Source: Candidatus Kuenenia stuttgartensis (GTDB lineage: Bacteria; Planctomycetota; Planctomycetia; Planctomycetales; Planctomycetaceae). From it: a DNA stretch of 64,000 nt. A program made the translations under genes and the position numbers. Below, piece by piece: positions 192 to 56,828 of this stretch (positions are counted from its first letter, which is position 1; every line of letters begins with the position of its first letter). The stretch spans positions 1 through 64,000 of the forward strand of contig CAMDPK010000018.1 of NCBI GenBank assembly GCA_945904015.1, written 5' to 3'. The notes beneath the pieces were generated by a model. That model was given only the letters and a program-made list of their open reading frames with translations. It was not told the DNA's origin and ran no database searches.

Positions 192-2987
192 CTACGGACG
201 ACGCACTCGCGCGACGAAGTACGGTTGGCCGTCGAGGTAGGACGGAAATCGGCGGCCACCGTCGCTCGTCAGGACTTCGACGAAGTACTGAAAGTCGTCA
301 CGCGACAGGATGTCTTTGCTCGACACGTTGCCTTGAAACGACCCGTCCGCCGTCTTTTTCAGCGTGACCTGCTTCCAATCCAGCGTCTGATTCAGCGGCC
401 GGTAGTGCAGCACCACCGATCGCAGATTCGATTCGTTGCTGAGTTGCACGGCGAACGTCGCATCCGCCGCCGGATCGAGTTCCGTAGGTTGGGACTCCGT
501 CCCGACCTTGTGGTTCGCATCACTGAGCCGCAGGGCGCTAGCCCCGGTTGAACCGGACGCTAGCGCGTTCCGGCTGATTTGGTCGGCGTAAACATCAATC
601 TGATTCCTAAACCGACCGGACGTCACGGTCACCGACTCGACGCTCGGCACTGGCCCGGCCGGTTGCTCGCCAGGAAACCGTCGCGGTGGTTTCGCATCCG
701 GATGTTCGGCCACCAGTTTTTCCAAGGCGGTCACGTCCTCGCGCACTTCGGCCAGCCGGTCTTTCCAATGTCCCGAATGATGGTGCCCATTCTTCCGGCC
801 ATGCTGCGGCGAAAAGCCGAAGACGAGATTCGAGTGATACGTCCCCTCCGTCAGACGCACGATCTCTTCCCAAGCCGCCGCCGCGCCGCGAGCGTGCGGC
901 AGCGCGCGGGCCAGTCGGCCGGCTTCGTGAGTCAAATCAAAGAATGCCAGTTCCGTGGCCGCGAGCTTCTTCTCGGCGTGATACGTGCCGAGCGACGCCA
1001 GCACGCGCAGATCAAGTTCCGTCGCGCGGAACTCGGCCGAAATCGTGTAGGCGGGTTTCGCCGAAACCCGCTCTCCCGGCGTCGGCGACGCCGGGCCACG
1101 TTCAAAGGCCAGCTTCTCGCGAGCTTGTTGGATTTTCGAGAGCGTATTCGTCGCCAAGTCGCGCAGCCGTTGGCTGACTTCCAGAGGCGTTGTCTTGCCG
1201 CTCAGTCGGCCCGCGACCGCATCCTCGACGAAGCCGGGGATGTTGTTGTCCCATGTTTCGCTGCGCCAGCGCGGCGTCGGTTTCCACGAGCGGATCGCGT
1301 AGAACTGCGCGGTGTCGCCCGGAGGCGTGTGCATGTACTCGGTCAAACGGTCGCCCGTATCGATTTCCGGGCACCACATCCATTCGCCGGCGCTGAGCTG
1401 ATGCGTCGCGGTGACGAGCGGCAGAATTTGGCTGGCGCTGCGATACGCGGACTCGACTTCGTCGGCCGCAGGACCGAAGCGAGCACGGAATTCGCGCTTC
1501 CAGACTTCGGGATTCGCTTGCGGGTTGTAACCCAGCCGGCCGAACGCCAAGTAGAAGAACCAATACCGCTCGTGTTCCCAACGGTAATGTTCCAGCGACT
1601 TGTCGGCGAAGATGCGCCACTGCCCCGGCAGATTACCGAAGCCTTTGTCGGTCAGCGGCGCGTTGACCTCGAAGCCTTCACCGTCACCGAGCCGACAGCT
1701 TTCGGCGAACCGCGCGGCATACGTCGGATCGCCCCACAACAACAATCGCTGAGTGCCGACCGACCAAAGCTGATAGACGACTCGATAAGTGCGCGGATGA
1801 CTGAGCATCGCACCGAAGCTGTAGCGGCTCTCGCGATAGTGTGTGTCGGCGACGGTCGGGTGATACGGCAGCCCCATGTGCTCGCACCAGAACTTGGTCG
1901 AGACCGTCGCATCGAGCTTCATGTCGTTCGCGATTTGAATGGTCTCCGGCCGCAGTCCCTTGTAGCGCAGATCCACTCGCACGGGGTGGCCGCAATCGCG
2001 GATCGCTTGGAACAGCGGCCGGTAGAAATCGGTCTGCTGATCCTCGGACACGCCCGCCTCGGCGTTCATACGGAACTGCACCGCGTCGATGGCCGAGCAG
2101 GTCTCCAGAATCTTCCGCAGTCCCGCCGCGCAGTAATCCGCTGCCGCCAGTCCCGTCGGCAGATGCTCGACTCGAATCTCGCCCGGATACTTTTCGACCG
2201 GCAGTTGAGTCCAGATGCCGAGTGTGAAATCCAGCCCGCGCTCGTGAGCCAGCTCCGCGATCCGTTTCAGCATCGCGAGATTGCGTTCGCGATCCTGCGG
2301 CGTCAGTCCCTTCACGCTCACCTGCGGGAATCCGGGCACGTCCACCAAGAAGGCATAGAGCGGATTCAGGTAGTTCGTCTGATGCGAAAAGGTCAGTGTG
2401 AAGTTGTTGTACCGGCATTGAGCCAGCAGCCTGAAATACCCGGCCCAGAATTCTTCGTCGAAGTACCAGTCCACCTCCAAGTCCGCGTTGAAGAGTTGAA
2501 TCGTCATGCTTCGCACGCGGAGATACGGCGACTCGACCGCTTCCAGAATCGCCGTCAACGGAGTGGCCGACTGCGATGCGAGTTCAACCGCCCGCGCCGC
2601 ATCCAACAGCGCGTAGCTCAGGCCACGCTCGTCGGAGCCGGCGATCAGCAGTGTTGGGGTCTTGTCGGTCTTGAGCCTTTGAATGCACAGCGACTCGGCC
2701 TGCTTCGGAAGTTGGATGCGATGCTGGGCCAGCAAGCGGTCAACAAGTTGCGAGGTGCCCGCGATACCAACAACGATTTGCGATCCATCCTCCCTCAGTG
2801 TCCTGCGGCGTAGCGATTTGATGTCGCTCGTGTCCAAGGCGTTTTGCAATTCGGCGAGGGCCTTCAAGCTTGGATTCCCCAGCTTGGAATCGACGACGAT
2901 GTTGATCGTCTCTTTCGCGACAATCTCCGCAGCCAGCAACGTGAGCGCGACGAACGCCATCAGAATTCGCAATCGGAGTTGTGGCAT
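192..2987 (-). CDS. Secreted glycoside-hydrolase-like protein (alpha-glucuronidase/hexosaminidase-like fold)
   Basis: 931 residues. The start is the ATG at 2987, which has GAGGA seven bases upstream and opens a clear signal peptide (MPQLRLRILMAFVALTLLAA). The frame stays open further upstream, but that part only translates a spacer palindrome. Residues about 30-170 resemble the N-terminal alpha/beta domain of GH67/GH20-type enzymes (AGSDERGLSYALLDAAR), followed by a probable TIM barrel beginning near LRVRSMTIQLFNADLEVDW. The substrate is not readable; a uronate- or hexosamine-containing polysaccharide is an inference from fold and neighbours. It follows the beta-helix and sulfatase genes on the same strand, which suggests polysaccharide breakdown in the periplasm or outside the cell. 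Two repeat-derived segments lie in frame near the C-terminus (484-575). Confidence 0.75.
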   Translation of the reverse strand: MPQLRLRILMAFVALTLLAAEIVAKETINIVVDSKLGNPSLKALAELQNALDTSDIKSLRRRTLREDGSQIVVGIAGTSQLVDRLLAQHRIQLPKQAESLCIQRLKTDKTPTLLIAGSDERGLSYALLDAARAVELASQSATPLTAILEAVESPYLRVRSMTIQLFNADLEVDWYFDEEFWAGYFRLLAQCRYNNFTLTFSHQTNYLNPLYAFLVDVPGFPQVSVKGLTPQDRERNLAMLKRIAELAHERGLDFTLGIWTQLPVEKYPGEIRVEHLPTGLAAADYCAAGLRKILETCSAIDAVQFRMNAEAGVSEDQQTDFYRPLFQAIRDCGHPVRVDLRYKGLRPETIQIANDMKLDATVSTKFWCEHMGLPYHPTVADTHYRESRYSFGAMLSHPRTYRVVYQLWSVGTQRLLLWGDPTYAARFAESCRLGDGEGFEVNAPLTDKGFGNLPGQWRIFADKSLEHYRWEHERYWFFYLAFGRLGYNPQANPEVWKREFRARFGPAADEVESAYRSASQILPLVTATHQLSAGEWMWCPEIDTGDRLTEYMHTPPGDTAQFYAIRSWKPTPRWRSETWDNNIPGFVEDAVAGRLSGKTTPLEVSQRLRDLATNTLSKIQQAREKLAFERGPASPTPGERVSAKPAYTISAEFRATELDLRVLASLGTYHAEKKLAATELAFFDLTHEAGRLARALPHARGAAAAWEEIVRLTEGTYHSNLVFGFSPQHGRKNGHHHSGHWKDRLAEVREDVTALEKLVAEHPDAKPPRRFPGEQPAGPVPSVESVTVTSGRFRNQIDVYADQISRNALASGSTGASALRLSDANHKVGTESQPTELDPAADATFAVQLSNESNLRSVVLHYRPLNQTLDWKQVTLKKTADGSFQGNVSSKDILSRDDFQYFVEVLTSDGGRRFPSYLDGQPYFVARVRRP
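484..507. repeat. Single arm of GTAG palindrome family A, inside a CDS
   Basis: Begins GTAGGTTGGGACTCCGTCCC and matches the left arm of the complete intergenic element at 9183-9252. Only one arm is present. It lies in frame in the glycoside-hydrolase-like gene, where it is read as KVGTESQPTE, 18 bases from element B (526-575). Confidence 0.75.
526..575. repeat. Palindromic element, family B, in frame inside a CDS
   Basis: The left arm AGCCGCAGGGCGCTAGCCCC plus GGTT is followed after one base by an imperfect inverted copy (AACCGGACGCTAGCG...CCGGCT). The 24-base left arm is repeated exactly at 34371-34394 inside another gene. Here it is translated on the minus strand as SRNALASGSTGASALRL. Confidence 0.75.
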
Positions 2988-3020
2988 CCGCCGATCCTCT
3001 TTCAAGCTGTGGTGATCTGT

Positions 3021-3080: not shown

Positions 3081-3097
3081 GCGGGTCAGAGACGGAT

Positions 3098-5079: not shown

Positions 5080-5151
5080 GTAGCCCAGGCCCTTGTGGCC
5101 TGGATGATTTCTCGGAATGGGGATCATCCGACCCACAAGGGGTCGGACTAC
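5080..5151. repeat. GTAG...CTAC palindromic element between the beta-helix and sulfatase genes
   Basis: Starts GTAGCCCAGGCCCTTGTGGC and ends ...CCACAAGGGGTCGGACTAC. The two halves are imperfect inverted copies. The terminal CTAC, read on the minus strand as GTAG, supplies the TAG stop codon (5150-5148) of the sulfatase gene. A possible half-copy (GTAGTCCCGCCTTGTGGCCG) occurs at 11358. Confidence 0.7.
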
Positions 5152-6518
5152 TTCGTGGCAGCCTTCTTCTTGTTCTTCTTGGCCGCTTTGTTTGCCGCTT
5201 TCGCGGGGGCGTCTGGGGCGCTGGGTTCGGCTTGTTCGGCGCTCCATTTGTTCCACAGAGTTTGCAGTTCTTTGGCTTTGTCCGGCTGTGTACTCGCGAG
5301 GTTCTTCGATTCCGCGAAGTCGGTCGCGAGGTTGTACAACTCCGGCTCGCCGCTGCCTCCTTTGGAGACGACCAGCTTCATATCGCCGTGACGAATGCCC
5401 CATTGCGGGCCGTAGCGCCAGTAAAGCGTCTCGTGCGGACGGGACTTGCTCGCACCGGTGAGGAATGGCATGAGATCAACGCCATCGAGCTTCCAGGCCG
5501 GGTCCACTTTGCCTCCGGCGGCGGTCACGATCGTGGGCAGGACATCAAGGTTCATCACTGGGAACTCAAACGTCTTGCCAGCCGGGAATCTTCCTTTCCA
5601 TTGAGCGATGAAGGGAACACGTGGGCCTCCTTCGAAGGTGGTCATCTTGAAACCGCGCAGCCCACCGTTCTGCGACGTCGTGCTCTGAGTCGGGCCGCCG
5701 TTATCGCCGATGAAGAAGTACAACGTGTTCTCTTCCTGACCAATCTCGCGGACCTTGGTCATGACTCGGCCAATGGCGTCATCCATCGCCGACATCATCG
5801 CGGCGAACAGTTTTCGCTTCTCGTCGGTGATGTTCGGGAACCGGTCGAGATATTTCTTGGGAGCTTCCAGGGGCGCGTGCTGAGCGTTGAACGGGAGGTA
5901 CAGGAACATCGGCTTCGACTTGTTTTTCTCGATCCAATCCACCGAGCGATCGGCGTAAGCGTCCGTCGTGTAGAACGAATCGTCGTCGATCTTCCGCACG
6001 TCGTCCGAGATTCGCGAATCAACGAAGTTGGTCGGATGGAAGAACGGCGTATTGGCCAACGTGCCAAAAAACTCATCGAACCCACGTTTCGTCGGCCGGT
6101 ATTCGGGACCGCCTCCCAGATGCCACTTGCCGACGGCGGCTGTCGCGAAGCCGAGGCTTTTCAGTCGGTCGGCGAGCGTTGTCTCTTTCAAATGCAGACC
6201 GGTCTTGTTGGCGACGCTGTTGAACTCGTGACCGAAGCGCGTCGGATAGCGACCGGTCATCAAACCGGCTCGCGACGGACTGCAATACGTCGCGGCGACG
6301 TACCCCTGCGTGAACTTCACGCCGTTCTTGGCAAGCGAGTCGATATGCGGCGTCGGAATGTCCTTGTTGCCAAACGCGCCGGTTTCGCCCCATCCGAGGT
6401 CATCGGCATAGAAGATGATCAAATTCGGCTTGTCTGCGGCGTTTGCTGTCAGTCCCGTCGAGCTGATCCAGATCGCAAACATTCCCGCCAAACAGAACAC
6501 AGTGCTAATCGGTCGCAT
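5148..6518 (-). CDS. Secreted arylsulfatase (sulfatase family, Cys-type)
   Basis: 456 residues with a signal peptide (MRPISTVFCLAGMFAIWISS...ANA). The first metal-binding pair is DD at about 39-40 (FYADDLGWGE). The sulfatase signature CSPSRAGLMTGRY starts at Cys79, the residue that a formylglycine-generating enzyme converts to the catalytic formylglycine. Further family motifs are GKWHLGGGPEYRPTKRGFDE and FFIGDNGGPT. The C-terminus ends in a Lys/Ala-rich tail (about the last 25 residues). It would remove sulfate esters from polysaccharides or other sulfated substrates outside the cytoplasm. It heads a run of same-strand secreted enzymes. The stop codon is contributed by the palindrome at 5080-5151. 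Confidence 0.9.
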   Translation of the reverse strand: MRPISTVFCLAGMFAIWISSTGLTANAADKPNLIIFYADDLGWGETGAFGNKDIPTPHIDSLAKNGVKFTQGYVAATYCSPSRAGLMTGRYPTRFGHEFNSVANKTGLHLKETTLADRLKSLGFATAAVGKWHLGGGPEYRPTKRGFDEFFGTLANTPFFHPTNFVDSRISDDVRKIDDDSFYTTDAYADRSVDWIEKNKSKPMFLYLPFNAQHAPLEAPKKYLDRFPNITDEKRKLFAAMMSAMDDAIGRVMTKVREIGQEENTLYFFIGDNGGPTQSTTSQNGGLRGFKMTTFEGGPRVPFIAQWKGRFPAGKTFEFPVMNLDVLPTIVTAAGGKVDPAWKLDGVDLMPFLTGASKSRPHETLYWRYGPQWGIRHGDMKLVVSKGGSGEPELYNLATDFAESKNLASTQPDKAKELQTLWNKWSAEQAEPSAPDAPAKAANKAAKKNKKKAATK

Positions 6519-7578: not shown

Positions 7579-7740
7579 ATGAGCGAATTCTGGCGTCTCT
7601 GCTGTGAGTACGGTCGCTTCTACCAAGAAGGCACGATCTCCTTTTGGCGTTCGTTGCGGCCGGCGTCGTACACAGCAGTCTTGGCCGGCGTGTGGCTCAT
7701 CGGTTTTCTGCTGCTCAAGAGCGGGGCGCGACGGTCGTAG
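7579..7740 (+). CDS. Possible 53-residue single-span membrane protein
   Basis: ATG at 7579, TAG at 7738-7740. The peptide begins MSEFWRLCCEYGRFYQEGTI and has a hydrophobic stretch (TAVLAGVWLIGFLLL) followed by a basic end, the pattern of a small inner-membrane protein. No strong ribosome-binding site is visible. The stop codon lies in the GTAG that opens the palindrome at 7737, so the native C-terminus may have been longer. I do not recognise a family. It is reported because its composition is sensible and no other gene covers the stretch. Confidence 0.4.
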   Translation: MSEFWRLCCEYGRFYQEGTISFWRSLRPASYTAVLAGVWLIGFLLLKSGARRS

Positions 7741-7801
7741 GATGGGCACTCTTGCCCGTCCTACGCTTCACCGCACGGACGGGCAAGAGTGCCCATCCTA
7801 C
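7737..7801. repeat. Perfect 25-bp GTAG...CTAC palindrome, family E
   Basis: The left arm 7737-7761 (GTAGGATGGGCACTCTTGCC...) is a perfect inverted copy of 7777-7801, with a 15-base loop. It lies between the small gene and the sugar isomerase-like gene, and its first bases contain the small gene's stop codon. There is no T-run after either arm. Confidence 0.9.
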
Positions 7802-7807
7802 ATCTCG

Positions 7808-9182: not shown

Positions 9183-9252
9183 GTAGGTTGGGACTCCGTC
9201 CCGACCGTGAAGAGACGGAGACCCGGCAGGTCGGGACGGAGTCCCAACTTAC
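9183..9252. repeat. GTAG palindromic element, family A (complete copy)
   Basis: The left arm 9183-9206 (GTAGGTTGGGACTCCGTCCC...) pairs with 9229-9252 with one mismatch in 24. The right end reads CTTAC instead of CTAC, and on the minus strand the resulting GTAA supplies the TAA stop of the RraA-like gene (9251-9249). Confidence 0.9.
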
Positions 9253-9983
9253 TTTCCGCTCAGCCGCTTCTCGACCGCCTTGATCATGGCTCCGCATTCG
9301 GAGCGGGCGGCGGTGAAATCCTTCGCGGTGAGGTTCGTGCCCCTGAGGTAATTCAGGATGATCGCCTCGGCGACGGCGACTTCCTGGCAGACGCCGCCGA
9401 CTTCCGAAGCAATCTCGACCGGAATCGAGCAGATGCCATTGCGATCGCCGTGCAGCAGCGCACCGGGATAGACCGTCATGCCGCCGACGGAGACCGGCAC
9501 ATTCAGCGACAGCATGTGGCAATAGCCGTGAGCACAGATCGTCCCGTTCGTGAAGGCCGGGAAGTTCAACGCCTCGACCTGATCGAGGTCGCGGCCCGTG
9601 CCCGACGTGATCAGGCCGGCGGCTCCGAAGGCTTTGTACGTCGAGCACATCACCTCACCAAATGTGGCCGAAGCACACGGCATGTCGAGGTCTTGAAACA
9701 CGACGACCGGCGGGCCAGGAAAGTCGGAGAACGCCTCAAGTTGCTGAGAAATTCCGGAATACGCATCGCCGCCACGCGGTGGTGCCATGCTGCGGAAAGT
9801 GGTCGTCAGCGCGAAACCGACCATCGGCGGCAGCTTCGGGTAGCAGGCCACGATGCTGCCATTCATGTAGCCCAAGTTGCGGGGATAACGATTCCACAAC
9901 TCGACCGCGTTCGCGATCGTTGGAGTGTCGTACTTGGCCAATTCCTTCAAAACTTCCGCCGAAACGCCGGGATACTTCGCCAT
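9249..9983 (-). CDS. RraA-like protein (HMG/CHA aldolase or demethylmenaquinone methyltransferase-like family)
   Basis: 244 residues starting [20 protein letters not shown]. The family core is complete: [22 protein letters not shown], and the signature [17 protein letters not shown] followed by the [13 protein letters not shown] loop. RraA-fold proteins are either RNase E regulators or divalent-metal aldolases acting on 4-hydroxy-4-methyl-2-oxoglutarate-type compounds. The G-x-G-R-D motif holds the Arg and Asp used by the aldolases, so an aldolase-type activity is plausible but not proven. It is monocistronic and flanked by two palindromes. Its stop codon lies in the repeat at 9183-9252. Confidence 0.85.
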
Positions 9984-10005: not shown

Positions 10006-10085
10006 CGTGGGGCAGGTTTTCAACCTGCCTGGGAACAGTCGATGAGATTGCGATGCTGACGGGCAGGTTGAAAACCTGCCCCACG
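10006..10085. repeat. Perfect 24-bp palindrome, family F
   Basis: The left arm 10006-10029 (CGTGGGGCAGGTTTTCAACC...) is a perfect inverted copy of 10062-10085, and each arm contains its own small palindrome (CAGGTTTTCAACCTG). It sits just upstream of the RraA-like gene and in the divergent region with the DUF1569 gene, so it could affect both 5' regions. Confidence 0.88.
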
Positions 10086-39552: not shown

Positions 39553-39612
39553 GTAGAGCAGGCGGCTCGCCTGCTGGCCTTCTAGACATCACAGGCGAAC
39601 CGCCTGTGCCAC
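39553..39612. repeat. GTAG-type repeat with two small hairpins
   Basis: Begins GTAGAGCAGGCGGCTCGCCT and contains AGCAGGCG-GCT-CGCCTGCT and ACAGGCG-AAC-CGCCTGT, which are related to each other. It lies in the divergent spacer just before the redoxin-like gene. Confidence 0.6.
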
Positions 39613-39629
39613 GAACTCAGGAGTTCGCC

Positions 39630-40994
39630 GTGCTTGCTGTCAGCCAATTGATGCTCGTGACCGCGTTGCTGTCTTCGGGAGCCGATGTGCTCGGCGACGC
39701 ACCGGGAATGGAACTGCGATACACCGGCACGCTGGCGCGAGTGACTCGCACCGCGACCGAGCAGCCGTACAAGAAATTCACGCTCTTGGCCGTCGCTTCC
39801 CGGCAGGCCGAGGGGACGAAGGTCACGTACATGACCGATGAACGGGGCGGTGGAAGCTGGGCGTGGCCGGAACGATTTGGCATGCTGGAGCTCAACGCCA
39901 AAAACAAGCCGGCCAATGACGCGACGATCCGGTTGCTCGCCGAGCACGAAGGGCACCTGAACCCGATCGCGATTCGGCAGCCTTTCTTCGAGCATCCCGA
40001 ACAACTCAGCGAAGATGCCGACGGCGATTGGGTCTCCGGCCAGCACTCCTACGAGTTGGCTGAAGGGACAAAAAAGATCAAGGATCGCGAGTGCCTCGTG
40101 GTGCGCGTCTCAACGAACAACGGCCGCAAGCAACGGCTGTGGATCTCGAAGGCAGACCACACGCTGTTGGTCGCCGCCGAGCAGCAAGTCTTCATGGGCC
40201 GTGGCGACGAGTTCCAATTGAAGCTCGAACTGGAATCCGTCAAGCCACTGGACGCCGCCGCCTTGGCCAAGATTCAAAAGCCGTTTGAAACTCTGGTCGC
40301 CTTGAAATCTCAGATGAACCGTCCGGACGGTGAGACCAAGGCTGAGTTGAGCGACACTCAAATCGCCGCCGCAAAGAAGGTGATCGACTCGTTGCAAACA
40401 TCTGCCGAAGGGACGCCGCTCGCACCGCTGGCCGCCGTCATCAGCCGCGATGTGAAATCTCAAACGCAACGAGCCGACGACGTCTCGAACGTCTCGAAAA
40501 AGTTCGTCGGCCAGCCCTCCCCTGCCTTTGAATTGACGACGCTGGAAAAGAAAACGATCAACTCAAAAGACCTCGCCGGCAAGATCGTCGTGCTGCACTT
40601 CTGGGACTACGACAGCGATCCGCTCACCGAACCCTACGGCCAAGTCGGCTATCTCGACTTCTTGTCGAACAAGCGTAAGCGATACGGCATCGAGGTCATC
40701 GGCGTCGCGACGAACGAATCGTTCGCTGATCCCGCCAAGACGACCGGCGCGCTCCGTTCGGTTCGCAAGCTGCGTGAGTTCATGAACCTCGGCTACCCGA
40801 TCGCGACCGACGACGGCACGCTCGTCACCAAGTTCGGCGACCCGCGTAAGCTGGGAGCCAAACTCCCGCTGTGGGTCGTCATCGGCCCTGACGGCAAGAT
40901 CGCCCACTACCACGTCGGCTTCTACGCCATCAAACCGGACGAGGGCCTGCGACCGCTCGACGAAGCGGTGATGAAGCAGATCAAAACGAAGTAG
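39630..40994 (+). CDS. Secreted redoxin/TlpA-like protein lacking the catalytic cysteines
   Basis: 454 residues from the GTG at 39630, which has AGGAG six bases upstream; the N-terminus MLAVSQLMLVTALLSSGADV is a signal peptide. Residues about 30-280 are a domain of unknown type. From about 300 a thioredoxin-like AhpC/TSA domain follows (VGQPSPAFELTTLEKKTINS, GKIVVLHFWDYDSDPLTEPY, YGIEVIGVATNES, PLWVVIGPDGKIAHYHVGFY). Where TlpA proteins have the redox motif W-C-x-x-C after the FW, this protein has FWDYDSD with no cysteine, so it cannot do thiol-disulfide exchange at that site. A binding or structural role is more likely. Its TAG stop lies in the repeat at 40991. Confidence 0.82.
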   Translation: MLAVSQLMLVTALLSSGADVLGDAPGMELRYTGTLARVTRTATEQPYKKFTLLAVASRQAEGTKVTYMTDERGGGSWAWPERFGMLELNAKNKPANDATIRLLAEHEGHLNPIAIRQPFFEHPEQLSEDADGDWVSGQHSYELAEGTKKIKDRECLVVRVSTNNGRKQRLWISKADHTLLVAAEQQVFMGRGDEFQLKLELESVKPLDAAALAKIQKPFETLVALKSQMNRPDGETKAELSDTQIAAAKKVIDSLQTSAEGTPLAPLAAVISRDVKSQTQRADDVSNVSKKFVGQPSPAFELTTLEKKTINSKDLAGKIVVLHFWDYDSDPLTEPYGQVGYLDFLSNKRKRYGIEVIGVATNESFADPAKTTGALRSVRKLREFMNLGYPIATDDGTLVTKFGDPRKLGAKLPLWVVIGPDGKIAHYHVGFYAIKPDEGLRPLDEAVMKQIKTK

Positions 40995-41020
40995 GGCCGG
41001 CTCCTGCCGGCCAATGCTAC
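40991..41020. repeat. Short GTAG...CTAC palindrome
   Basis: GTAG at 40991, core GGCCGGCTCCTGCCGGCC, CTAC at 41017-41020. The TAG of the GTAG is the stop codon of the redoxin-like gene (40992-40994). Confidence 0.72.
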
Positions 41021-44669: not shown

Positions 44670-45589
44670 TCCCCCGACACCTTATCCCAGCACGACGCGC
44701 CAGCGAGTGGTCATCCACGAAAGACCACTCGCTGACGCGTCGTGCTAGGTTTGGCAGCCACCGATACAAAATTCGCAGACCGACAAATTGGCCAGCCGTG
44801 TTGCTGTTGCTGAGTTGGTTTGTTGTTGGCGAACTCCATGTCGGTTTTTGCGAGCAGCCCAATGCGCTCACGGACAAGACGCCAGCCTCCACGACGCGCG
44901 AGCCAATTTCGGACGACGACGCGCCGACGGAACTCAAGCGATTGATCGCCGACGGCAAAGTCAAAGTCGTCTACGACTCCGACCCGGAGTTCGTGAAGGC
45001 CGCGCGAGGTTGGGCCGACTTCCATGTGCGGCTGGAGCACACGTTCAAATACGGCCTGGTGAAGTCGCGAAAGAACGACCGCTGGCAAGTGAGGCTCACT
45101 GTCGCGAAGTTGGAACAGAAGATTGAGCTGACGCACTTGATCCGGCTGCCGGCTTCGTTCAAGTCACCGGACGTCTGGCAAGGCTCAATTCTGCGACACG
45201 AGTTCGATCATGTCGCCGTGAGCCTGGACCCGCGAGCGATGCTGCTGCTTCACCATTTGCTCAAGCACTTGCCGGTGATCGAACGGACTCTGGAGCCGCA
45301 GGAAGAGCCGTCGAACGAACGACTCAAACAGATCATCACTGAGGAAATCGACCGCCGTCACAAAGCGGTGATCGAGTTGATGCGGCAGAACAATGTGCTG
45401 CTCGACAAAGTGGGCAACCACGGGGCACGATCGGTGCCTGACCGAGCCGCCTTCTTCGCCAAGCTCTACACGAAGGAGCATCTCGCCGAGCAGAAGTTCC
45501 CGTTTGTGGATCAAGTGCTCAAACTGCTGGAGACGAAGGAATACCAAAACGCCGAATTGCGTTTCGTGCCGCGTGATCCGACCGAGTAA
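44666..45589 (+). CDS. Membrane-anchored or secreted putative metalloprotease-like protein (HEFDH)
   Basis: 307 residues if it starts at the ATG 44666, which overlaps the AAA gene's stop (ATGA). In that case residues about 8-30 (LIPARRASEWSSTKDHSLTR) are translated from palindrome G2. A GTG at 44798 would begin instead at the hydrophobic segment VLLLLSWFVVGELHVGF. The mature part contains ILRHEFDHVAVSLDPRAMLL, an H-E-x-x-H zinc-protease-like motif, and helical repeats afterwards (SNERLKQIITEEIDRRHKAV). It may relate to DUF922-type putative metalloproteases; that is uncertain. Confidence 0.62.
   Translation: MIPRHLIPARRASEWSSTKDHSLTRRARFGSHRYKIRRPTNWPAVLLLLSWFVVGELHVGFCEQPNALTDKTPASTTREPISDDDAPTELKRLIADGKVKVVYDSDPEFVKAARGWADFHVRLEHTFKYGLVKSRKNDRWQVRLTVAKLEQKIELTHLIRLPASFKSPDVWQGSILRHEFDHVAVSLDPRAMLLLHHLLKHLPVIERTLEPQEEPSNERLKQIITEEIDRRHKAVIELMRQNNVLLDKVGNHGARSVPDRAAFFAKLYTKEHLAEQKFPFVDQVLKLLETKEYQNAELRFVPRDPTE
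44686..44749. repeat. Family G palindrome (copy 2) at a gene junction
   Basis: The left arm 44686-44711 pairs with 44724-44749 with about two mismatches. The arms share AGCACGACGCGCCAGCGAGT with copy 1 at 29029. It lies just after the AAA gene's stop and is read through in frame if the next gene starts at 44666. Confidence 0.9.
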
Positions 45590-45670: not shown

Positions 45671-48600
45671 ATGCGAATTCTGCTCTGCTCCGCGTCGTTG
45701 TTGTGTGGACTCGCCGTGACGGCCGAAGCCGCAGAGATCGATTACCTCACAGAAGTGAAACCGCTGCTGGCCGCCAAGTGCGTGGCCTGTCATGGCGGCT
45801 TGCGACAGCGGGGCAACTTCCGGCTCGACACAGCAAAGTTCGCGCTCAAAGGGGGTGACAGCGGCCCAGCCATCGTGGTCGGCGACAGCGCCAAGAGCGT
45901 GTTGATCGAAGCCATCCTCGGCGAGAACGGCCGCACGAAGATGCCCGTCGAAGGCGAACCGCTCAAGCCGGAGCAGATTGAAATCCTCCGCCGCTGGATC
46001 GACGCCGGAGCGAAAGCCCCCGCTGACGAACCCGTCGCCGACCCACGCGACCACTGGGCGTTCAAGAAGCCCGTGAAATCCCAAATTCCAAATCTCAAAT
46101 CTCAAATCTCAAATTCCTCCGCTCTAATCGAAAATCAAAAATCAAAAATCGAAAATCCGATCGACCTGTTTACCGTCGCCGAACAGCAATCGCGCGACCT
46201 CACACCCCTGCCCGAAGCCGACAAGGCGACGTTGCTGCGGCGAGTCTTCATCGACCTCATCGGCCTGCCGCCAACATCTGCGGAGTTGCATGATTTCTTG
46301 AATGATGACGAACCCGACGCTTACGAGCGTGTCGTCGATCGACTACTCGAATCTCCGGAGCACGCACGACGCTGGGCTCGGCATTGGATGGACATCTGGC
46401 GGTACAGCGATTGGTACGGCAGCCGCGGCGGCAACGAACTCCGCAACTCGCGCCGGCACATCTGGCGCTGGCGTGACTGGATCATCGAGTCGCTTGCCGC
46501 CGACAAGGGCTATGACCGCATGATCGTCGAGATGCTCGCGGCGGACGAGATCGCTCCCGGCAATCGCGACATCGGCCGAGCCACCGGCTTCCTCGGCCGC
46601 AACTACTACGTCTTCAATCGCAACGTCTGGCTACACGACACCGTCGAGTTCACGAGCGCGGCGTTTCTCGGTCTGACCTTCAAGTGCTGCCGCTGCCACG
46701 ACCACAAGTACGACCCGCTGGCTCAAGAAGAGTACTTTCGTCTGCGAGCATTCTTCGAGCCGCTCAACGTCCGCACCGATCAACTCGCCGGCAAGAGCGA
46801 CCTAATTACCGGCAATTGGCCGGCCGGTGCGCCGCCCGGACACAAGCTGAAAGACGGCGACGATTTCGTCTTCGACGCCGATCTCGCCGTGCCGACGTAT
46901 CTCCTGGATCGCGGCAACGAAAAGAATCCCGTGACCGACAAGCCGCTCGCTCCCGGTGTGCCGAGCGTCTTGAATCTGCCGCTGTCACCCATCGAACCGA
47001 TCACGCTTCCGCTCGAAGCGTTCTACCCCGATCTTCGCGCAGACCGCCGACAGGAGTTGATCGACAACGCGAAGACCGCCATCACGCAAGCGGAAGCGGA
47101 TGTCGCCAAGAAACAAGCCGCCGTCGAAACTGCCAAGAAGAAGTTGGAGTCAGCAGTACCACGACCGTTAGGGAGTGGCCAGGGCGACACAACGGGGCCG
47201 CTCCCTAACGGTCGCGGTACGGATACGGTGACGCCGTTTCTCGACGACATTTTCGCCACGCACAACAAAGAGGTCTGGAAAATCCTCAGCGGTGATTGGA
47301 CGTTCGAAGATCAGAAGCTCAAGCTGAAATCGCCCGGCCATTTCGTCACGATCGCGACGCTGAGGAATCATCCGCAGGATTTCAAAGCGACTCTGAAATA
47401 CCGCACGCTGCTGGGTGGTTCGATCGGATCGGTCGGTTTGTTCTTCGACATGGTCGAACTCAAAGACGCACAAGCCGTCTACACGTCCCTTGGTACCGGC
47501 AACTCCGCCGTGCAAGCGTTTCACCGCCGCAACGGAGCCGAAGCCTATCCCAACGCCGGCATCGTTCCGGCGGTCGTGAAGGTCAACGAAGACACGACCC
47601 TGGAAATCACCGCTCGCGGCCAAGAGTTGAAGATCTGGCTCAACGGCGAGTTGAAGCTGACCTACGCGATGCCGACGCCTCGCCAACCTGGGCGTTTCGC
47701 GCTGTGGTGTCACGCGGGCGTCGCTGAGTTTCATTCCTTGAAGATCGTCCCGTTTGAGCCAACCGACGAAGAGCTACGACTTGCCTTGCGAACGGCGGAA
47801 TCGGAAGCTGCGCTTGCGGCGAAGTCGATCGAGGTTGCTCGTGCGGAAGCAGTGGCCATCGAAGCGCGAGTCGCCGCCGACGTCGAGAAGCATGTAGCTC
47901 GGACGCCTACGTCCGAGAGACCGGACGTAGGCGTCCGGTCTACTGCGGCCAGCCGCGCCGAACGACTCGTCACGCTCGCGAAAGCGGAACTCGAGGCGCT
48001 GCGTGCCGAACAACAACTCGGCAACGTCCAATTTGAAATCTCAAATTTGAAATCTCAAATCTCAAACTCCAAATCCGAAGAAGCCCGCAAAGCCGCCGAG
48101 TCCAAACTCACCGCTGCTCGCGCCGCAGTCGATGCCGCGAAAACCAACGCCGCGAAAGACGACACGACCTACACGCCGCTCGGCCCGACCTATCCCATCA
48201 CCAGCACAGGCCGACGACTCGCGCTGGCCAATTGGCTAACGAACAAAGACAACCCGCTCACCGCTCGCGTCGCCGTCAATCATGTTTGGAAACGCCACTT
48301 CGGCTCGGCCCTCGTGCCGAGCGTTGCCAACTTCGGACTCAACGGGAAACCGCCAACGCACCCTGCCCTGCTCGATTGGCTGGCCGTCGAATTCATCGAA
48401 TCCGGCTGGAGCATGAAGCAACTGCATCGCCTGATTGTCACCAGCGCGACGTATCGCAGGTCGAGTGGCGAGGGACGAGGGGCGAGGGGCGAGCAAGACA
48501 GGAGTCCCGATCTCTCGCCCCTCGCCACTCACCCCTCGCCCCTCTCCTCCGATCCCGACAACCGTTTCTACTGGCGATCCAACGTGCGCCGCATGGAAGC

Positions 48601-49156
48601 CGAGGTCGTGCGCGACACGTTGTGGTCTCTGACTGAGGGACTCGACCGATCGTTCGGCGGCGTCGAACTCGAACCGGCGGCGGCCGACACGACGCCGCGC
48701 CGCAGTCTTTATTTCCGACACACGCCTGACGATCAGGCCACGATGCTGGAACTCTTTGACGGTCCCTCGGCCGCCGAGTGCTTCGAGCGAACCGACAGCA
48801 TCATGCCTCAGCAGGCGCTGGCGCTTGCCAACAGTTCGCTCGCGCTGATGCAGTCGCGCAATCTGGCTCGGACTTTGTCACAGGCTCAGGCCGGCACGGC
48901 GCTGACCAGCGATGCCGACTTCTTGCGTTCCGCATTTGAACGCGTTCTCAGCCGAAGTCCGAATGCCGATGAACTGGCGAAGACTGAAGCATTCTTGCAG
49001 AGGCAGACCGCAGCGCTGGCTGATCCGGCCAAACAGACGCGGACGACAACGGGGTTGAACAGCTCGCTCGCTCCGGCGACAGACCCGCGATTGCGTGCCC
49101 GCGAGAACCTCGTGCATGTCCTGCTGAACTATCACGAGTTCGTGACGATTCGCTGA
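45671..49156 (+). CDS. Very large PSCyt1-PSCyt2-PSD1 protein with multiple repeat-derived insertions
   Basis: 1161 residues with a signal peptide (MRILLCSASLLCGLAVTAEA). The haem motif is KCVACHGG (Cys37, Cys40, His41; PSCyt1). DUF1549/PSCyt2 follows (RRVFIDLIGLPPTSAELHDF, ARHWMDIWRYSDWYG, CCRCHDHKYDP). The middle has a DUF1080-like lectin/beta-sandwich (WTFEDQKLKLKSPGHFVTIA ... LTYAMPTPRQPGRFALWCHA) between coiled-coil stretches. DUF1553/PSD1 closes it (AVNHVWKRHFGSALVPSVAN, FDGPSAAECFERTDSIMPQQ). Five segments are translated from repeats at 46078, 47156, 47894, 48030 and 48463, without breaking the frame. No DUF1501 partner is adjacent. Function unknown. Confidence 0.9.
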   Translation: MRILLCSASLLCGLAVTAEAAEIDYLTEVKPLLAAKCVACHGGLRQRGNFRLDTAKFALKGGDSGPAIVVGDSAKSVLIEAILGENGRTKMPVEGEPLKPEQIEILRRWIDAGAKAPADEPVADPRDHWAFKKPVKSQIPNLKSQISNSSALIENQKSKIENPIDLFTVAEQQSRDLTPLPEADKATLLRRVFIDLIGLPPTSAELHDFLNDDEPDAYERVVDRLLESPEHARRWARHWMDIWRYSDWYGSRGGNELRNSRRHIWRWRDWIIESLAADKGYDRMIVEMLAADEIAPGNRDIGRATGFLGRNYYVFNRNVWLHDTVEFTSAAFLGLTFKCCRCHDHKYDPLAQEEYFRLRAFFEPLNVRTDQLAGKSDLITGNWPAGAPPGHKLKDGDDFVFDADLAVPTYLLDRGNEKNPVTDKPLAPGVPSVLNLPLSPIEPITLPLEAFYPDLRADRRQELIDNAKTAITQAEADVAKKQAAVETAKKKLESAVPRPLGSGQGDTTGPLPNGRGTDTVTPFLDDIFATHNKEVWKILSGDWTFEDQKLKLKSPGHFVTIATLRNHPQDFKATLKYRTLLGGSIGSVGLFFDMVELKDAQAVYTSLGTGNSAVQAFHRRNGAEAYPNAGIVPAVVKVNEDTTLEITARGQELKIWLNGELKLTYAMPTPRQPGRFALWCHAGVAEFHSLKIVPFEPTDEELRLALRTAESEAALAAKSIEVARAEAVAIEARVAADVEKHVARTPTSERPDVGVRSTAASRAERLVTLAKAELEALRAEQQLGNVQFEISNLKSQISNSKSEEARKAAESKLTAARAAVDAAKTNAAKDDTTYTPLGPTYPITSTGRRLALANWLTNKDNPLTARVAVNHVWKRHFGSALVPSVANFGLNGKPPTHPALLDWLAVEFIESGWSMKQLHRLIVTSATYRRSSGEGRGARGEQDRSPDLSPLATHPSPLSSDPDNRFYWRSNVRRMEAEVVRDTLWSLTEGLDRSFGGVELEPAAADTTPRRSLYFRHTPDDQATMLELFDGPSAAECFERTDSIMPQQALALANSSLALMQSRNLARTLSQAQAGTALTSDADFLRSAFERVLSRSPNADELAKTEAFLQRQTAALADPAKQTRTTTGLNSSLAPATDPRLRARENLVHVLLNYHEFVTIR
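46078..46157. repeat. AT-rich tandem repeat in frame in the PSCyt/PSD1 gene
   Basis: Repeats of CTCAAAT (CAAATCTCAAATCTCAAATC) are followed by repeats of AAAATC. Translated as SQIPNLKSQISNSS and IENQKSKIENP. Located between PSCyt1 and PSCyt2, in a linker. Confidence 0.82.
47156..47220. repeat. Family D palindrome in frame in the PSCyt/PSD1 gene
   Basis: The left arm 47156-47180 (GTACCACGACCGTTAGGGAG...) pairs with 47196-47220 with two mismatches. Related to 32191-32253. Translated as AVPRPLGSGQGDTTGPLPNG, in the linker before the beta-sandwich. Confidence 0.9.
47894..47943. repeat. Family C palindrome in frame in the PSCyt/PSD1 gene
   Basis: GTAGCTCGGACGCCTACGTC... pairs with 47921-47943. 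The GTAG is read as GTA-G so the embedded TAG is out of frame. Translated as VARTPTSERPDVGVRST, in a coiled-coil linker. Confidence 0.88.
48030..48075. repeat. AT-rich CAAATCTCAAATTTGAAATC-type repeat in frame
   Basis: Short units of CAAATCTCAAA and its reverse, translated as FEISNLKSQISNSKS. The peptide NLKSQISNS also occurs at the repeat at 46078 in the same protein. Confidence 0.8.
48463..48544. repeat. Imperfect GC-rich palindrome in frame in the PSCyt/PSD1 gene
   Basis: GAGTGGCGAGGGACGAGGGG... pairs imperfectly with 48513-48544 (CTCGCCCCTCGCCACTCACC...). Translated as SSGEGRGARGEQDRSPDLSP and LATHPSPLSS, inside DUF1553 between two conserved blocks. Confidence 0.8.
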
Positions 49157-50870: not shown

Positions 50871-53800
50871 CTCACACTCCCCTTCCCCAACACCGTCGCA
50901 GCCGATCGTCATTCGCGAGAACATCGACAGCTTGTCGGCGTCACTGTCCGACCAGATCGAGATGCTCGCCGGTGAGTTGCGAACGCGCTGGAAGAGCGGC
51001 AAACGCATCGGCGTTGAACAACTCGGTTCCGCTTTCGAGCAACTCGCGAAGAACGAAGAGCAACTGCTCGACCTGATCTACCACGAGGTACTGATCCGCG
51101 AAGAGTTCGGCGAGAAGCCGAAGCTGGAGGATTTCACCGCGCGATTTCCGCAGCATGTCGATCGGCTGCAACGACTGTTCGCGGTTCACGGCGCGATCGA
51201 GGACGATGGCTGGGACGAAGAACTCGATTCGGCATTCGCGGATCAAGCGCGGACGATGACGGGCGAAGACGGGCAAGAGCGTCCGGCTCCGTCGTCCACC
51301 GATCTGGGGGACAGCGGCGAGCGGAAAAAGTCGCATTGGCCACGAAAGTCGCGTGACTCGCGGCCGGTCGAGCCGCCACCTGGTTACGAGTTGCTCGAAG
51401 AGATCGGCCGCGGCGGCATGGCGGTCGTGTTCCGTGCGAAGCAGCAAATCCTGAATCGGGTCGTCGCGCTGAAGATGCTGTTGGCCGGTGGTGTCGCCAG
51501 CAAAGAGGTGCTCGCCCGCGTCCAGCAGGAAGCTCGTGCGGTCGCGCAGTTGCAGCATCCAGGGATCGTGCAGATTCACGAAGTCGGCGAGCATCGCGGA
51601 CTGCCATTTCTCTCGCTGGAATACGTCGCCGGCGGCACGCTGCATGAGTGGCTCAACGGTCGCCCGCTCCCCCCGCTGGAAGCCGCGCGAATCATCGAGC
51701 AACTCGCACGCACGACGCAGTACGCGCACGAGCGAGGCGTCGTGCATCGCGATCTCAAGCCAGCGAACGTGCTGTTGACCGAACGGCCGGTGAGCATGCA
51801 ATCGAGCACGACGATCCCTGTCGGCGAGATCACGCCGCCGAGCATCGCCACGCTCGCCAGAGCGGGGGACAGCGATCCATCCAACCCACGCTCTGGCGAG
51901 CGTGGCTACGAACCGCAAACCAAGATCAGTGACTTTGGTCTCGCGCGCGTGCTTGGCAGCCGGAGTGATCTGACGGCGACCGGCCAAGTCATCGGCACGC
52001 CGAGCTACATGGCTCCCGAACAGGCCGCCGGGACCGTCGATGATGTCAGTCCGGCTCAGGATATTTATTCGCTCGGCGCGATCTTGTACGAACTGCTGAC
52101 CGGCCGGCCGCCATTCCGAGGTTCGTCGTTGTTCGACACGCTCGAACAAGTCCGCACGACTGAGGCAGTCCCGCCGAGACAACTGCAGCCGCGCGTGCCA
52201 CGCGACATCGAAACGATCTGCTTGAAATGTTTGGAGAAGCTCCCCGATCGCCGCTATCCGACCGCCGCCGCGCTGGCGGATGACCTGCGACGAGTGCAAG
52301 ACGGTGACACGATCACCGCTCGCCCAGCCGGGTCGTTTGAGCGTGGCTGGAAATGGGTCCGTCGCTATCCGGCCGTCTCGTCGCTGTCGTTGCTCACCGT
52401 GCTGCTGACTGTTGTCGGAGCGGTCGGCATCTTGCGAGAAGCGCAACGCGCGAATCAGAACGAAGCGTCCGCGATCATCGACAGCCAGCGAGCCGATCAT
52501 CAACGCCGATTTGCCGAGACTCAACAGATCAAAGCGGAAGAGCAGGCGAAGATCGCGCTCCAGGAGCGTTTGAACGCCGAGGAACAACGAACGCTGGCCG
52601 AGGAAGCTCAGAGGAATGCGGAGCAGCAACGGCAAGTCGCCGAAGCGGAACGAACGCGGGCCGTCCAAGCTCAGGCCCAAGCCGAAGCCAGTTTTGATCG
52701 GACCATGACCACCATTAAATCGCTGGCGGACCTCGGCACGTCGCTCCGCAGCCAACCGGGCCAGCAAGCCACCAGCAAACGACTGCTGGACGAAACGCTC
52801 CGGCTGTATGACGAGCTGGCTAAAGAGCAAGGGACGAATTCGACGTTGCGTCGGCGACGGATCTCGGCGTTGGTGAGTGCGGGTGAGATTCGCAAGAGCC
52901 TGCGTGAGTACGACGAGTCCGAGAAGCTGCTGAAACAATCCGCCGAATTGGTGGAGTCGGAGATTCAATTGAGTCCCAGCGACCCCGATCTGAATTACCG
53001 AGCGACCACCGTCTACTGGAATCTGGCTATCCTCTACAAAGACAGCGACCGACCAAACGAATCCTTGGAGTCGCTGCGGCGGTACGCGGTTGCCATCGAT
53101 GCCGTGCTGGAAAAGTACCCCGGCAATTCCGGGATATTGACCAGCAAGGCGAATGCTCTCACCAATGAGTGCATCATCCTGATCCACTTGGGGCGACCGC
53201 TCGACGCGCTGGTTCGCTATGACGAGGCGATCACCATTCTTCGCGACGTCCTGAAGAGGTTGCCTGACCACCTGGGTGCGCAAAACGAACTGGCGCTGGT
53301 ACTGCACGACTATTCGACGCTGCTGCGCCGACTGGGGCGCGTCGAACCGGCCGAAGCCGCGTTTCGCGAAGCGTTCGCACTTCGCAAGGCACTCTTTCAA
53401 AAGTTTCCGAAAGATGTCTTCCATCGTTCGTTCTTGGCCCGGCTCCACACCAGCCAAGGGGAAATCGAACGGGCGGCCAAGCACTATGACGAAGCCATTG
53501 CTCAGCATCAGCAAGCGGTGACACTCACGCAGTCGCTGGCGGACGACTTCCCGGACATCTACGAGTACCAGCGAATTACCATCGGAGCCATGATCGAACA
53601 ATTGAACGTCTGCCTGGCCGCGAACAACACGGAGATTGGCAAACCTTTGCAGCAACGCCTGGCGGCACGTCTGCAGATCGCGTTTCAGAAATTTCCAAAA
53701 GACCAGTACGTCGTCGACAAGGTCGCGGACTGGCTCGATCACTGTGCCGCTCAACTCTGGGAGGATGGCCAGAAGGCTCAAGCCACATCGCTGGCCAAAT

Positions 53801-54805: not shown

Positions 54806-55236
54806 GGCATGATCCCTTTTGAGGCTGATGGTTGGTTGGGTCGGTCGTTTTCGCCAGCCAGGTCGAATCGACCTGCGAGCCACTTGTTGGTGTCTCGCGT
54901 CGTTGTGTCTCACACCTCTATCAACGCAGCCCCTCCGCGAGTCGCACAAAGAATTTGAATTTTCGATCAAGCGACGAAGCCGCAGCCAATTTGGTGAGCT
55001 GGGCGGCGTCAGCCCCCGGACAGTTCGGATCACATTCGTCCGGGGGCTGACGCCGCCCGGCTCACCGAAGCACACGCGAAAAACAGACGTCGTTCGAGCA
55101 AAGACTCGATTCCGCCGCCAGAAACTCACCACATCGGCCGCCAGAAATCCGACTTGTGTCACCGGTGCAACGAGCTAACCTCACTCCCCTGCCCTTTCCC
55201 GCCCAGCAAATTCAGAGACCAATCAGGAGCCTGACT
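54806..55236. other. Divergent spacer without a gene, holding one palindrome
   Basis: 431 bases between the STAS-like gene and the DUF1501 gene. Apart from element L (54993-55066), nothing is recognised. It must hold the promoters of both flanking genes. Confidence 0.5.
54993..55066. repeat. 28-bp palindrome, family L
   Basis: The left arm 54993-55020 (GGTGAGCTGGGCGGCGTCAG...) pairs with 55039-55066 with one mismatch in 28. There is no T-run. Confidence 0.92.
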
Positions 55237-56721
55237 GTGCCCACGACTCGCGATCCCTTCCCCTGCCGTCGGACTCGCCGCAGCGTTCTGGCCGATTGCG
55301 GCCTCGGCTTCACCGGCCTGGCGATGGGAGCCATGCTGCACCGCGATGGTGTCGTTCGCGCGAACGACGCTTCTGCGAAAGAAGTCATCGACGGTCGGCC
55401 GCACCGTCAGCCGAAAGCCAAGAGCGTCATTTGGCTCTTCATGGGCGGAGGGGTGAGTCACGTCGAGTCGTTCGACCCAAAACCAGCACTCAATAAATAC
55501 GCGGGACTGACGATCGAAGAGTCACCGGCCGCCGATGCGGTGCTGAAGTCCCCCTTCTACCGGAAGAACGTGCGCGACTTCGCGGGCGGGCCACGCAAGT
55601 TGATGGCCAAGATTTATCCGATGCAGATCGGCTATCGGCCGCACGGCGAGAGCGGCATCGAGATCAGCGACTGGTGGCCGCACGTCGGTTCGATGATCGA
55701 CGACATCGCCGTCGTCCGCTCGTGCTGGTGTACCGACAACGATCACGCCGCGCAGTACGAGATGCACACCGGGCATCACATCTTCGACGGCTATCATCCC
55801 AGCGTCGGCTCGTGGGCGCATTACGGCTTGGGTTCGCTCAACGACGAACTGCCGAGCTTTGTCGCGATCGGCGATCCTCCCGGAGTCTGCTGCGGCGGCA
55901 AGGGTGCTCAGAACGGGGCGTATCTCGGCCCGGAGCACAACGCCGTGCATCTGAAGTTCGACGCGAACCTCCCCCTGCCCTACGCCTCGCCAGGCCCGGA
56001 AGTCTTTCAAGAAGAGCAAGCCGCCGAGTTCGAGTTGCTCCGCGAGCTCAACGGCTTGTCCGCCGCGAAACATCCCGAAGACACGGCCGTGCGAGCGCGG
56101 ATGAAATCGTATGAACTCGCCTTCCGCATGCAGACGTCGATCCCCGAAGTCTTCAAGCTGTCTGGCGAGACCGCGTCAACAAGTGACCTCTACGGTTTGA
56201 ACAACCCGGTCTCGAAACCGTTCGGGGAAACCTGTCTGCTCGCGCGGCGGTTGGTCGAACGCGGCGTCCGCTTCGTGCAGCTTTATCACGGCGGCGGAGG
56301 TGGCGGCTCGTGGGACGCGCACGCCAACTTGAAGGACAACCACGGCAAGCTCAGCCCGATGGTCGATCAACCGATCGGCGGCCTGCTGCGCGACCTCAAG
56401 CAGCGCGGCCTGCTCGACGAAACCATCGTCGTCTGGGCCACCGAATTCGGCCGCACTCCCGGCGAAGAAGGCGCAAAAGGCCGCGACCATCACCCCTACG
56501 GCTTCTCCTGTTGGCTCGCCGGCGGCGGCCTGAAAGGGGGCCTCGCTCACGGAGCTACCGACGAAATCGGCTTCCACGCCGCCGAACACCGCCACTACGT
56601 CACCGACATCCACGCCACCGTGCTCACCCAACTCGGCCTCAACCCACACACGCTCGAAGTGCCCGGCCATAAGCGGCTGGAGATCGAGTTTGGGAAACCA
56701 ATTGGCGAAATCATCGCGTAG
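55237..56721 (+). CDS. DUF1501 family exported protein
   Basis: 494 residues from the GTG at 55237, which has AGGAG seven bases upstream; upstream in-frame codons lack a signal. The Tat-like leader is RRTRRSVLADCGLGFTGLAM. Family motifs are VIWLFMGGGVSHVESFDPKP, VVRSCWCTDNDHAAQYEMHT, FVQLYHGGGGGGSWDAHANL and VWATEFGRTPGEEGAKGRDH. It ends [20 protein letters not shown]...EIIA, a tail that is duplicated at 57475-57625. The TAG stop is the TAG of the GTAG that begins repeat O; in the duplicated tail the same position is TGA. No PSCyt partner is adjacent. Confidence 0.9.
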   Translation: MPTTRDPFPCRRTRRSVLADCGLGFTGLAMGAMLHRDGVVRANDASAKEVIDGRPHRQPKAKSVIWLFMGGGVSHVESFDPKPALNKYAGLTIEESPAADAVLKSPFYRKNVRDFAGGPRKLMAKIYPMQIGYRPHGESGIEISDWWPHVGSMIDDIAVVRSCWCTDNDHAAQYEMHTGHHIFDGYHPSVGSWAHYGLGSLNDELPSFVAIGDPPGVCCGGKGAQNGAYLGPEHNAVHLKFDANLPLPYASPGPEVFQEEQAAEFELLRELNGLSAAKHPEDTAVRARMKSYELAFRMQTSIPEVFKLSGETASTSDLYGLNNPVSKPFGETCLLARRLVERGVRFVQLYHGGGGGGSWDAHANLKDNHGKLSPMVDQPIGGLLRDLKQRGLLDETIVVWATEFGRTPGEEGAKGRDHHPYGFSCWLAGGGLKGGLAHGATDEIGFHAAEHRHYVTDIHATVLTQLGLNPHTLEVPGHKRLEIEFGKPIGEIIA

Positions 56722-56828
56722 TATGTCGCCGTCATCGCTCCGCGTGACGAGTCGATCGTCGTTTGATATCAACCGACAAAAGACTGTCGAATGACGTTCG
56801 GCTCATCACGCGGAGCGATGATGGCTAC
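56718..56828. repeat. GTAG...CTAC palindromic element at a stop codon, family O
   Basis: Starts GTAGTATGTCGCCGTCATCG at 56718 and ends ...CGATGATGGCTAC at 56828. The outer arms of about 33 bases pair imperfectly (shared CATCGCTCCGCGTGA). Its GTAG carries the DUF1501 stop codon. Confidence 0.8.

Follow-up and report, generated by a model that had tools for sequence, protein, structure and literature searches.

The window analysed here comprises bases 1-64000 of contig C18 (64,912 bases) from the assembly GCA_945904015.1, deposited as Candidatus Kuenenia stuttgartensis (7.43 Mb in 286 contigs, 91.7% complete; hereafter the host), and it is strewn with palindromes, many of which carry GTAG at one end and CTAC at the other. 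With a probability of about 0.92, these palindromes are REPINs, that is, inverted doublets of repetitive extragenic palindromic (REP) units, spread by Y1 transposases of the REP-associated tyrosine transposase (RAYT, or TnpA-REP) kind, each core family having its own transposase lineage. This interpretation is carried by the anatomy of the units, the pairing of families with Y1 lineages, the copy numbers of the families and their variable occupancy between species, all observed in a comparison set of 12 genomes consisting of the host (G000) and 11 congeners (G001-G011), whose main matches to the window are ~72-91% identical. A sequence-only reading of the window had likened palindromes at nine coordinates to REP/RAYT elements, and the sequence it gave is present at all nine; the likeness holds for the inverted doublets, the separate hairpin in each arm, the GTAG foot, the high copy number, and the Y1 genes flanked by the same hairpins.

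The palindromes were counted in a host sample of 81 stretches (1,650,525 bases of the 7.43 Mb, window included), seven of which (L069-L075) were picked for holding a Y1 gene. Among the 376 palindromes of this sample, GTAG/CTAC is the first of the 256 end tetramers (93 palindromes) and GTGG the second (69), against a median of 4 and a mean of 9 per tetramer, which bears out the enrichment of GTAG/CTAC ends that had been proposed as a check. A foot together with a perfect hairpin is present in both arms of 98 of the 376, comprising 53 GTAG/GTAG, 42 GTGG/GTGG, and 3 mixed pairs. Comparison of the arms within 128 double palindromes shows differences at 56 of 1022 stem pairs; in 34 of these both bases have changed, such that the arm keeps its own pair and the arm-to-arm pairing is lost (e.g., GTAGGTCAGGC..GCCTGAC opposite GTAGGTCAGCC..GGCTGAC), and the remainder are broken (9), single changes that still pair (7), or G-T pairs (6). 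The unit is the arm, a hairpin with its foot, and not the long palindrome. Among host-sample copies with ≤3 mismatches, the foot is GTAG in 28/30 units of family B and 32/34 of family D, and GTGG in 90/93 of the GTGG family; the feet of family C are mixed (28 GTAG and 15 GGAG; n = 45). The base preceding GTAG units (position -1) shows a mild bias, being C in 92/174 (53%; sample-wide, 43% of GTAG have C there) and G in 8/174 (vs. 18%). C also precedes 89/122 GTGG units, where it is probably part of the element. The possibility that GTAG is an insertion target was suggested by the site at 9183, where the gene end in G011 has CTAC without a palindrome; this is not claimed, as other palindrome-free sites (26694 in G003, G009, and G011; 35937 in G004) have no GTAG.

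The arms of the window palindromes were compared with the 500-bp flanks of 91 Y1 genes, with 441 kb of congener DNA as the control. For each of seven window families, the matches lie on both sides of genes from a single Y1 lineage; five have GTAG feet (B, C, 17703, the right arm of 5080, and 40991) and two are footless (29029/44686 and 32191/47156). Family B (GTAGGTTGGGACTCCGTCCCGACC), represented by a single GTAG REP at 484-507 (forward strand) and a doublet at 9183-9252, matches only at the sister genes L198 and L208, and window positions 192-517 are 96% identical to the flank of the family-B RAYT in G004. As previously stated, the right end of the 9183 doublet is TTAC; this foot provides the TAA stop of the open reading frame (ORF) 9249-9983. 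The family C doublet (GTAGGATGGGCACTCTTGCCC; 7737-7801) matches only at L202, where the copies on either side carry GGAG as the foot, and the GTAG doublet at 17703-17780 (GTAGGGTGGGTCGAGTCATCGAGACCCACC) only at L220. The single GTAG REP at 40991-41020 (forward strand), whose TAG is the stop of ORF 39606-40994, matches only at L140. At 5080-5151, a GTAG doublet with two unlike arms, the right-arm core matches only at L224, a 61-amino-acid (aa) frame with an in-frame stop, and the left arm has no match in the flanks of the 91 genes; the right foot supplies the TAG stop of ORF 5148-6518. The footless palindromes at 29029-29090 (CCAGCACGACGCGCCAGCGAGTGG) and 44686-44749 form one family, with matches only at the sister genes L210 and L211, and those at 32191-32253 (CCGTACCGCGACCGTCAGGGAGCGGCC) and 47156-47220 (in frame within ORF 45671-49156) form another, with matches only at L213. 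L210, the upstream flank of which is cut by a contig end, is the sole exception to the two-sided matches. Of the eight families with partners on this pattern, counting the 10006 family (below), seven have their partner genes in sister species, with none found in the host at its assembly completeness of 91.7%. The density of family B copies near Y1 genes is 1.23 per 10 kb (vs. 0.29 in the control), and the excess for family C is modest (0.45 vs. 0.23). The proposal that several co-existing subfamilies are moved by related Y1 transposases is thus supported by the two-sided, one-lineage-per-family matches.

Other window families have less complete partners. The GTGG-footed doublet at 10006-10085 (GTGGGGCAGGTTTTCAACCTGCC) has a one-sided match at L201, and six copies of its unit surround the open host RAYT L272. 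Family D (CGGACGCCTACGTCCG core), which comprises GTAG doublets at 26694-26747, at 35937-35998, and at 47894-47943 (in frame within ORF 45671-49156), has no match in the flanks of the 91 Y1 genes; a family D doublet adjoins one side of L265, a RAYT fragment at a contig end in G008 that groups with the family C gene L202 (support 94/83). One-sided matches were also obtained at L215 for the footless palindrome at 54990-55069 (GGGCGGCGTCAGCCCCCGG) and at L241 for the doublet at 51844-51909 (51847 in the flank comparison), which has a decayed left foot and a GTAG right foot. No Y1 partner was found among the 91 flanks for the decayed doublet at 56718-56831, the arms of which (56722-56766 and 56787-56831) lie directly 3' of the stop of ORF 55156-56721. 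The earlier expectation of Y1 genes flanked by the same hairpins therefore holds for the seven window families and the 10006 family, in one-sided form only for D and 54990, and finds no two-sided case for 51847 and none for 56718.

The claim that GTAG and CTAC bound eight of the sites is correct in part. In-register double palindromes with these ends are present at six of the eight (5080, 7737, 17703, 26694, 35936, and 47894), although the start given as 35936 is one base early, the GTAG being at 35937. At 40991, GTAG and CTAC are both present, but there is only one hairpin unit and its CTAC is shifted by four bases from the register; the GTAG at 56718 closes ORF 55156-56721 with its stop codon and lies outside the palindrome, which has the left foot GTCG and the right foot GTAG. 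That unrelated cores share like ends is correct, as the cores differ between families and each arm has its own hairpin. The GTGG-footed 10006 family and the footless palindromes at 29029, 32191, 44686, 47156, and 54990 had been missed. Inspection by eye revealed the class 3 foot, CnGA, in the CCCGAAGCG family alone, and not in the 29029 or 32191 families. Palindromes of the AGTGCAAAGTGAAGAGTGCA type occur elsewhere in the host, other inverted repeats in the window (25177-25277, 48463-48544, and 63521-63597) are simple-repeat-like, and Rfam at gathering scores gave no match in the window. Positions 1-150 of the window belong to a dispersed repeat of ~150 bp with matches at 88-90% on contigs of G005, G009, and G011, several at contig ends; contig C18 starts inside this repeat, beside sequence that flanks a family-B RAYT in G004 and G007.

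Occupancy was examined at 17 window sites, which yielded 79 orthologous comparisons after exclusion of those with ≥260 bases between the flanks; three sites gave none. The same family was present in 33, a different palindrome in 20, and none in 26, as judged by a rough sorting in which four "same" calls lie at the 75% threshold and some weakly paired cases (e.g., G003 at 7737 and G005 at 47156) were scored as none despite a visible repeat. Comparison of empty sites had been suggested from the window; clean ones are few because the relatives are too distant. The 20 comparisons with a different palindrome could also be read as the work of one RAYT that swaps cores in place, the shared feet being recombination points at which sites are recycled between families. 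This is improbable, since unaligned 25-300 bp stretches of these loci hold palindromes (51/99) as often as the non-matching sites do (20/46), and reuse of permissive stretches therefore suffices; random segments of the same lengths hold them in 55/2760. The occurrence of one Y1 lineage per family also argues against a shared enzyme, and in-place exchange of cores has no support beyond the reuse of variable stretches. Varying occupancy extends into a gene. ORF 45671-49156 is a PSCyt1/PSCyt2/PSD1 gene, and 10 relatives have a counterpart with an open frame. Its linkers at residues ~495-520, 742-757, and 932-955 are poorly conserved and contain in-frame repeats that differ from species to species. 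This gene and the named relatives of L202 (below) indicate that the host is a planctomycete.

A search with PF01797 gave 91 matches in 11 of the 12 genomes (4 below the Pfam cut-off), with 8 in the host and none in G011. The search for Y1/RAYT genes that had been suggested thus succeeds in the host, where a profile recovered one further RAYT, and in 10 of the 11 congeners. A tree of the 88 proteins of ≥110 aa (out of 91) contains 1.2-like (27, weakly supported), 2.1-like (25), 2.2-like (6), 2.4-like (10), and class-3-like (9) groups, with 11 proteins outside; "-like" denotes assignment by this tree and the motif table of Quentin et al., 2018 (PMC6006769), and not placement in the published tree. 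Profile A1, built from eight 2.4-like proteins, found further genes beyond PF01797, including L265 and L272 (G000:C229:5518-6159), an open frame of 241 aa without a Pfam match at E 0.01. Because PF01797 misses this open host RAYT, Pfam-based counts of RAYT genes are too low. The profile matches the solved TnpA-REP structure 4er8 (E 2e-5). The HUH motif, the catalytic Tyr, and the WQ region are present in the partners L140, L198, L199, L201, L207, and L220, although the motif patterns missed many other Y1 proteins. The HUH motif is SHLH in L272 and NHCH in L202, the closest named relatives of which (L202 being from G001) are in Pirellulaceae and Planctomycetia at 54-56% identity. As for the partners of the footless families, L210 and L211 have both NHVH and Y----Q motifs, L213 has DHVH without Y----Q by pattern, and L215 has neither; L213 and L215 group with L006 and L211. 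L006 (1330-1977) is itself a class-3-like host Y1 gene; copies of the repeat that flanks it appear, from the sequence, to code for its C-terminus, which repeats TRSVSEGERSP. PF01797 found a single 2.4-like gene in the host, L007, which is interrupted by an in-frame TGA. Selenocysteine was considered and rejected, as the TGA lies in a poorly conserved stretch and the relative L206 has three other stops; both L007 and L206 look like decayed genes.

The flanks of these genes also bear on whether the palindromes are miniature inverted-repeat transposable elements (MITEs) moved by ordinary IS200/IS605 or DDE insertion sequences (IS) instead of by RAYTs. The 1.2-like genes are the largest Y1 group (27/88), many have flanking inverted repeats, and two (L132 and L134) have same-core GTAG hairpins on both sides. 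In a test for a same-core GT[AG]G perfect hairpin on both sides of genes with ≥300 bp of sequence on each, 9/12 2.4-like genes were positive (15 such genes were listed, five from profile A1), against 2/25 1.2-like, 0/19 2.1-like, and 0/6 class-3-like genes and 1/1500 random placements. With GA[AT]G and CT[AG]G as decoy feet, no gene was positive in any group (0/12 for 2.4-like) other than 1.2-like (2/25 each), and random placements gave 3/1500 and 0/1500, respectively; because the decoys also give 2/25 there, the 1.2-like figure alone says little. Among 80 loci of named relatives, 23 of the 63 with ≥3,300 bases were positive. Among Y1 genes, the two-sided partners of the window families are 2.2/2.4-like and class-3-like, not 1.2-like (L224 being outside the tree). 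Among the matches found, a genome has a single partner gene for a window family, or two in the case of family B in G004, and the several near-identical gene copies per genome that serve as a criterion for IS200/IS605 elements were not seen among them. On the evidence of the Y1 genes, MITEs of ordinary insertion sequences are very unlikely. As a separate observation, L132 and L134 have GTAG hairpins on both sides in a subclass, 1.2, that Quentin et al., 2018 (PMC6006769) list as lacking REPs. It is no more credible that the palindromes are intrinsic terminators or RNA-processing hairpins kept for expression, with incidental shared ends, for although several stand at stop codons (5080, 9183, 40991, and 56718), each family has tens to hundreds of near-identical host copies with a conserved foot, copies lie in frame inside a conserved gene, the cores of seven window families recur on both sides of Y1 genes of one lineage each, and occupancy varies between species.

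Spread by RAYT-like transposases, the preferred explanation, also finds partial support in copy numbers, which were obtained for five families with patterns derived from host sequences and hence biased towards the host; reversed patterns gave 0 in the host and 1 single match (G008, family B) over 12 genomes x 5 patterns. The host contains 113 copies of B, 245 of C, 189 of D, 42 of the 17703 family, and 388 of the GTGG (10006) family. Three of the five counted families reach their highest count in a genome that has an open partner gene, namely, B in G004 (265, vs. 7 in G011), the 17703 family in G007 (143, vs. 0 in G001), and the GTGG family in G000 (388, vs. 246 in both G010 and G004 and 8 in G008). 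The rule that a family is most numerous alongside its cognate gene does not hold for C and D.

Several results count against the proposed spread by cognate transposases. Families C and D reach their highest counts in the host, where no cognate Y1 gene was found, and the genome of the C partner (G001) has 120 C copies and that of the D partner (G008) 10 D copies. Across the 12 genomes, the relation between Y1 density and REP density is no more than suggestive, with a Spearman coefficient of 0.54 (p 0.07). G011, with 0 Y1 matches, has 23 copies per Mb (five families); densities are lower in G003 (1 Y1; 13 per Mb) and G008 (4 Y1; 10 per Mb), and G001 has only 22 copies per Mb with 15 Y1 matches. 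Near PF01797 genes there is no excess of D (0 vs. 0.5 per 10 kb) or of 10006 (0.22 vs. 0.41). The both-sides hairpin test is positive in 1/5 2.2-like genes and misses the B-family genes L198 and L208, and profile A1 matches the IS200-type transposase 2xm3 (E 2.1e-5) about as well as it does TnpA-REP. Finally, no movement of units was observed, the data being of variable occupancy between species. In G011 (stretches L158-L160 and L254-L257), low REP numbers are kept without a PF01797 match, and 21/32 family C matches have a GGAG foot.

In the mechanism proposed, a REPIN, which is a pair of REP units in inverted orientation, both of them small hairpins on a GTAG (or GTGG) foot, would spread as a small non-autonomous element by means of a Y1 (HUH single-tyrosine) transposase, the gene for which lies between copies of the same hairpin. 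By analogy with the E. coli, Stenotrophomonas, and Marinomonas enzymes, recognition of the single-stranded REP is most likely through its foot and hairpin, and the transposase would cleave beside the REP, with the foot as a guide, and join it elsewhere. Families would grow in genomes with a functional cognate gene and degenerate after its loss, which is only partly supported. The footless palindromes form a parallel set, tied likewise to a class-3-like Y1 lineage.

It is conceivable, though doubtful, that in some natural RAYTs of the genus the enzyme and its guide foot have changed together, the prevailing GTAG giving way to GTGG and GGAG. GTGG units stand beside L272 and L274, which group together (95/95); L273, which does not clearly join them, has three GTGG neighbours and one GTAG. 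GGAG is found in part of family C (15/45 host copies and the copies flanking L202). In the study of E. coli, Stenotrophomonas, and Marinomonas TnpA-REP (PMC8266576), the foot matters to differing degrees across the three enzymes; the Marinomonas enzyme cut an engineered GTGG substrate at CC, and at CA less well, and the GTGG swap failed for the E. coli and Stenotrophomonas enzymes. This failure in two enzymes argues against retargeting, as does the finding that no residue separating GTAG from GTGG enzymes was seen in the WQ...D[RH] region. If the foot does guide cleavage, these enzymes would have been retargeted in nature and would provide a direct test of the guide rule; whether the natural GTGG families are a ready test is uncertain.

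This is a known kind of system, of which the present genus is an unusually rich and diverse example. According to Di Nocera et al., 2013 (PMC3733652), in which the planctomycete R. baltica is listed, GTAG REPs form several families per genome and have dimers, a GTGG variant, feet that supply stop codons, copies inside genes, and partner genes. The palindromes described here share with them the footed hairpins, head-to-head dimers, several families, the GTGG variant, TAG stops, copies inside genes, and family-specific partner genes, and differ in that approximately nine footed families occur within 64 kb and families are mapped to genes over 12 species; the comparison is of family descriptions, not of listed sequences. 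REPINs, i.e., inverted REP doublets as a unit, are tied to specific RAYTs in Bertels and Rainey, 2011 (PMC3116915), with three groups in P. fluorescens SBW25, in contrast to the greater number of families here. The TnpA-Y1 subclass map of Quentin et al., 2018 (PMC6006769) has one REP family per tnpA-REP and places class 3, with atypical repeats at high copy, in Planctomycetes; the present proteins share the HUH and Y motif signatures of subclasses 2.2 and 2.4 and, in L210 and L211, of class 3, as assigned by motif and our own tree. The anatomy of foot and hairpin, read here from sequence alone, is common to the elements of E. coli, S. maltophilia, and Marinomonas TnpA-REP, and the natural GTGG families parallel the engineered GTGG substrate (PMC8266576). 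Among titles and abstract openings, a body of literature outside which most subscription journals fall, no genus-level REP map like this was found.

For this planctomycete genus, then, many REP families, foot variants, and transposases can be compared across 12 species, some of them with few or no Y1 matches, and hairpins occupy linkers within a conserved protein, leaving its coding frame open. Two questions are thereby made testable, namely, whether the expansion of REPs depends on their cognate RAYT, and whether the four bases of the foot determine where cleavage occurs.

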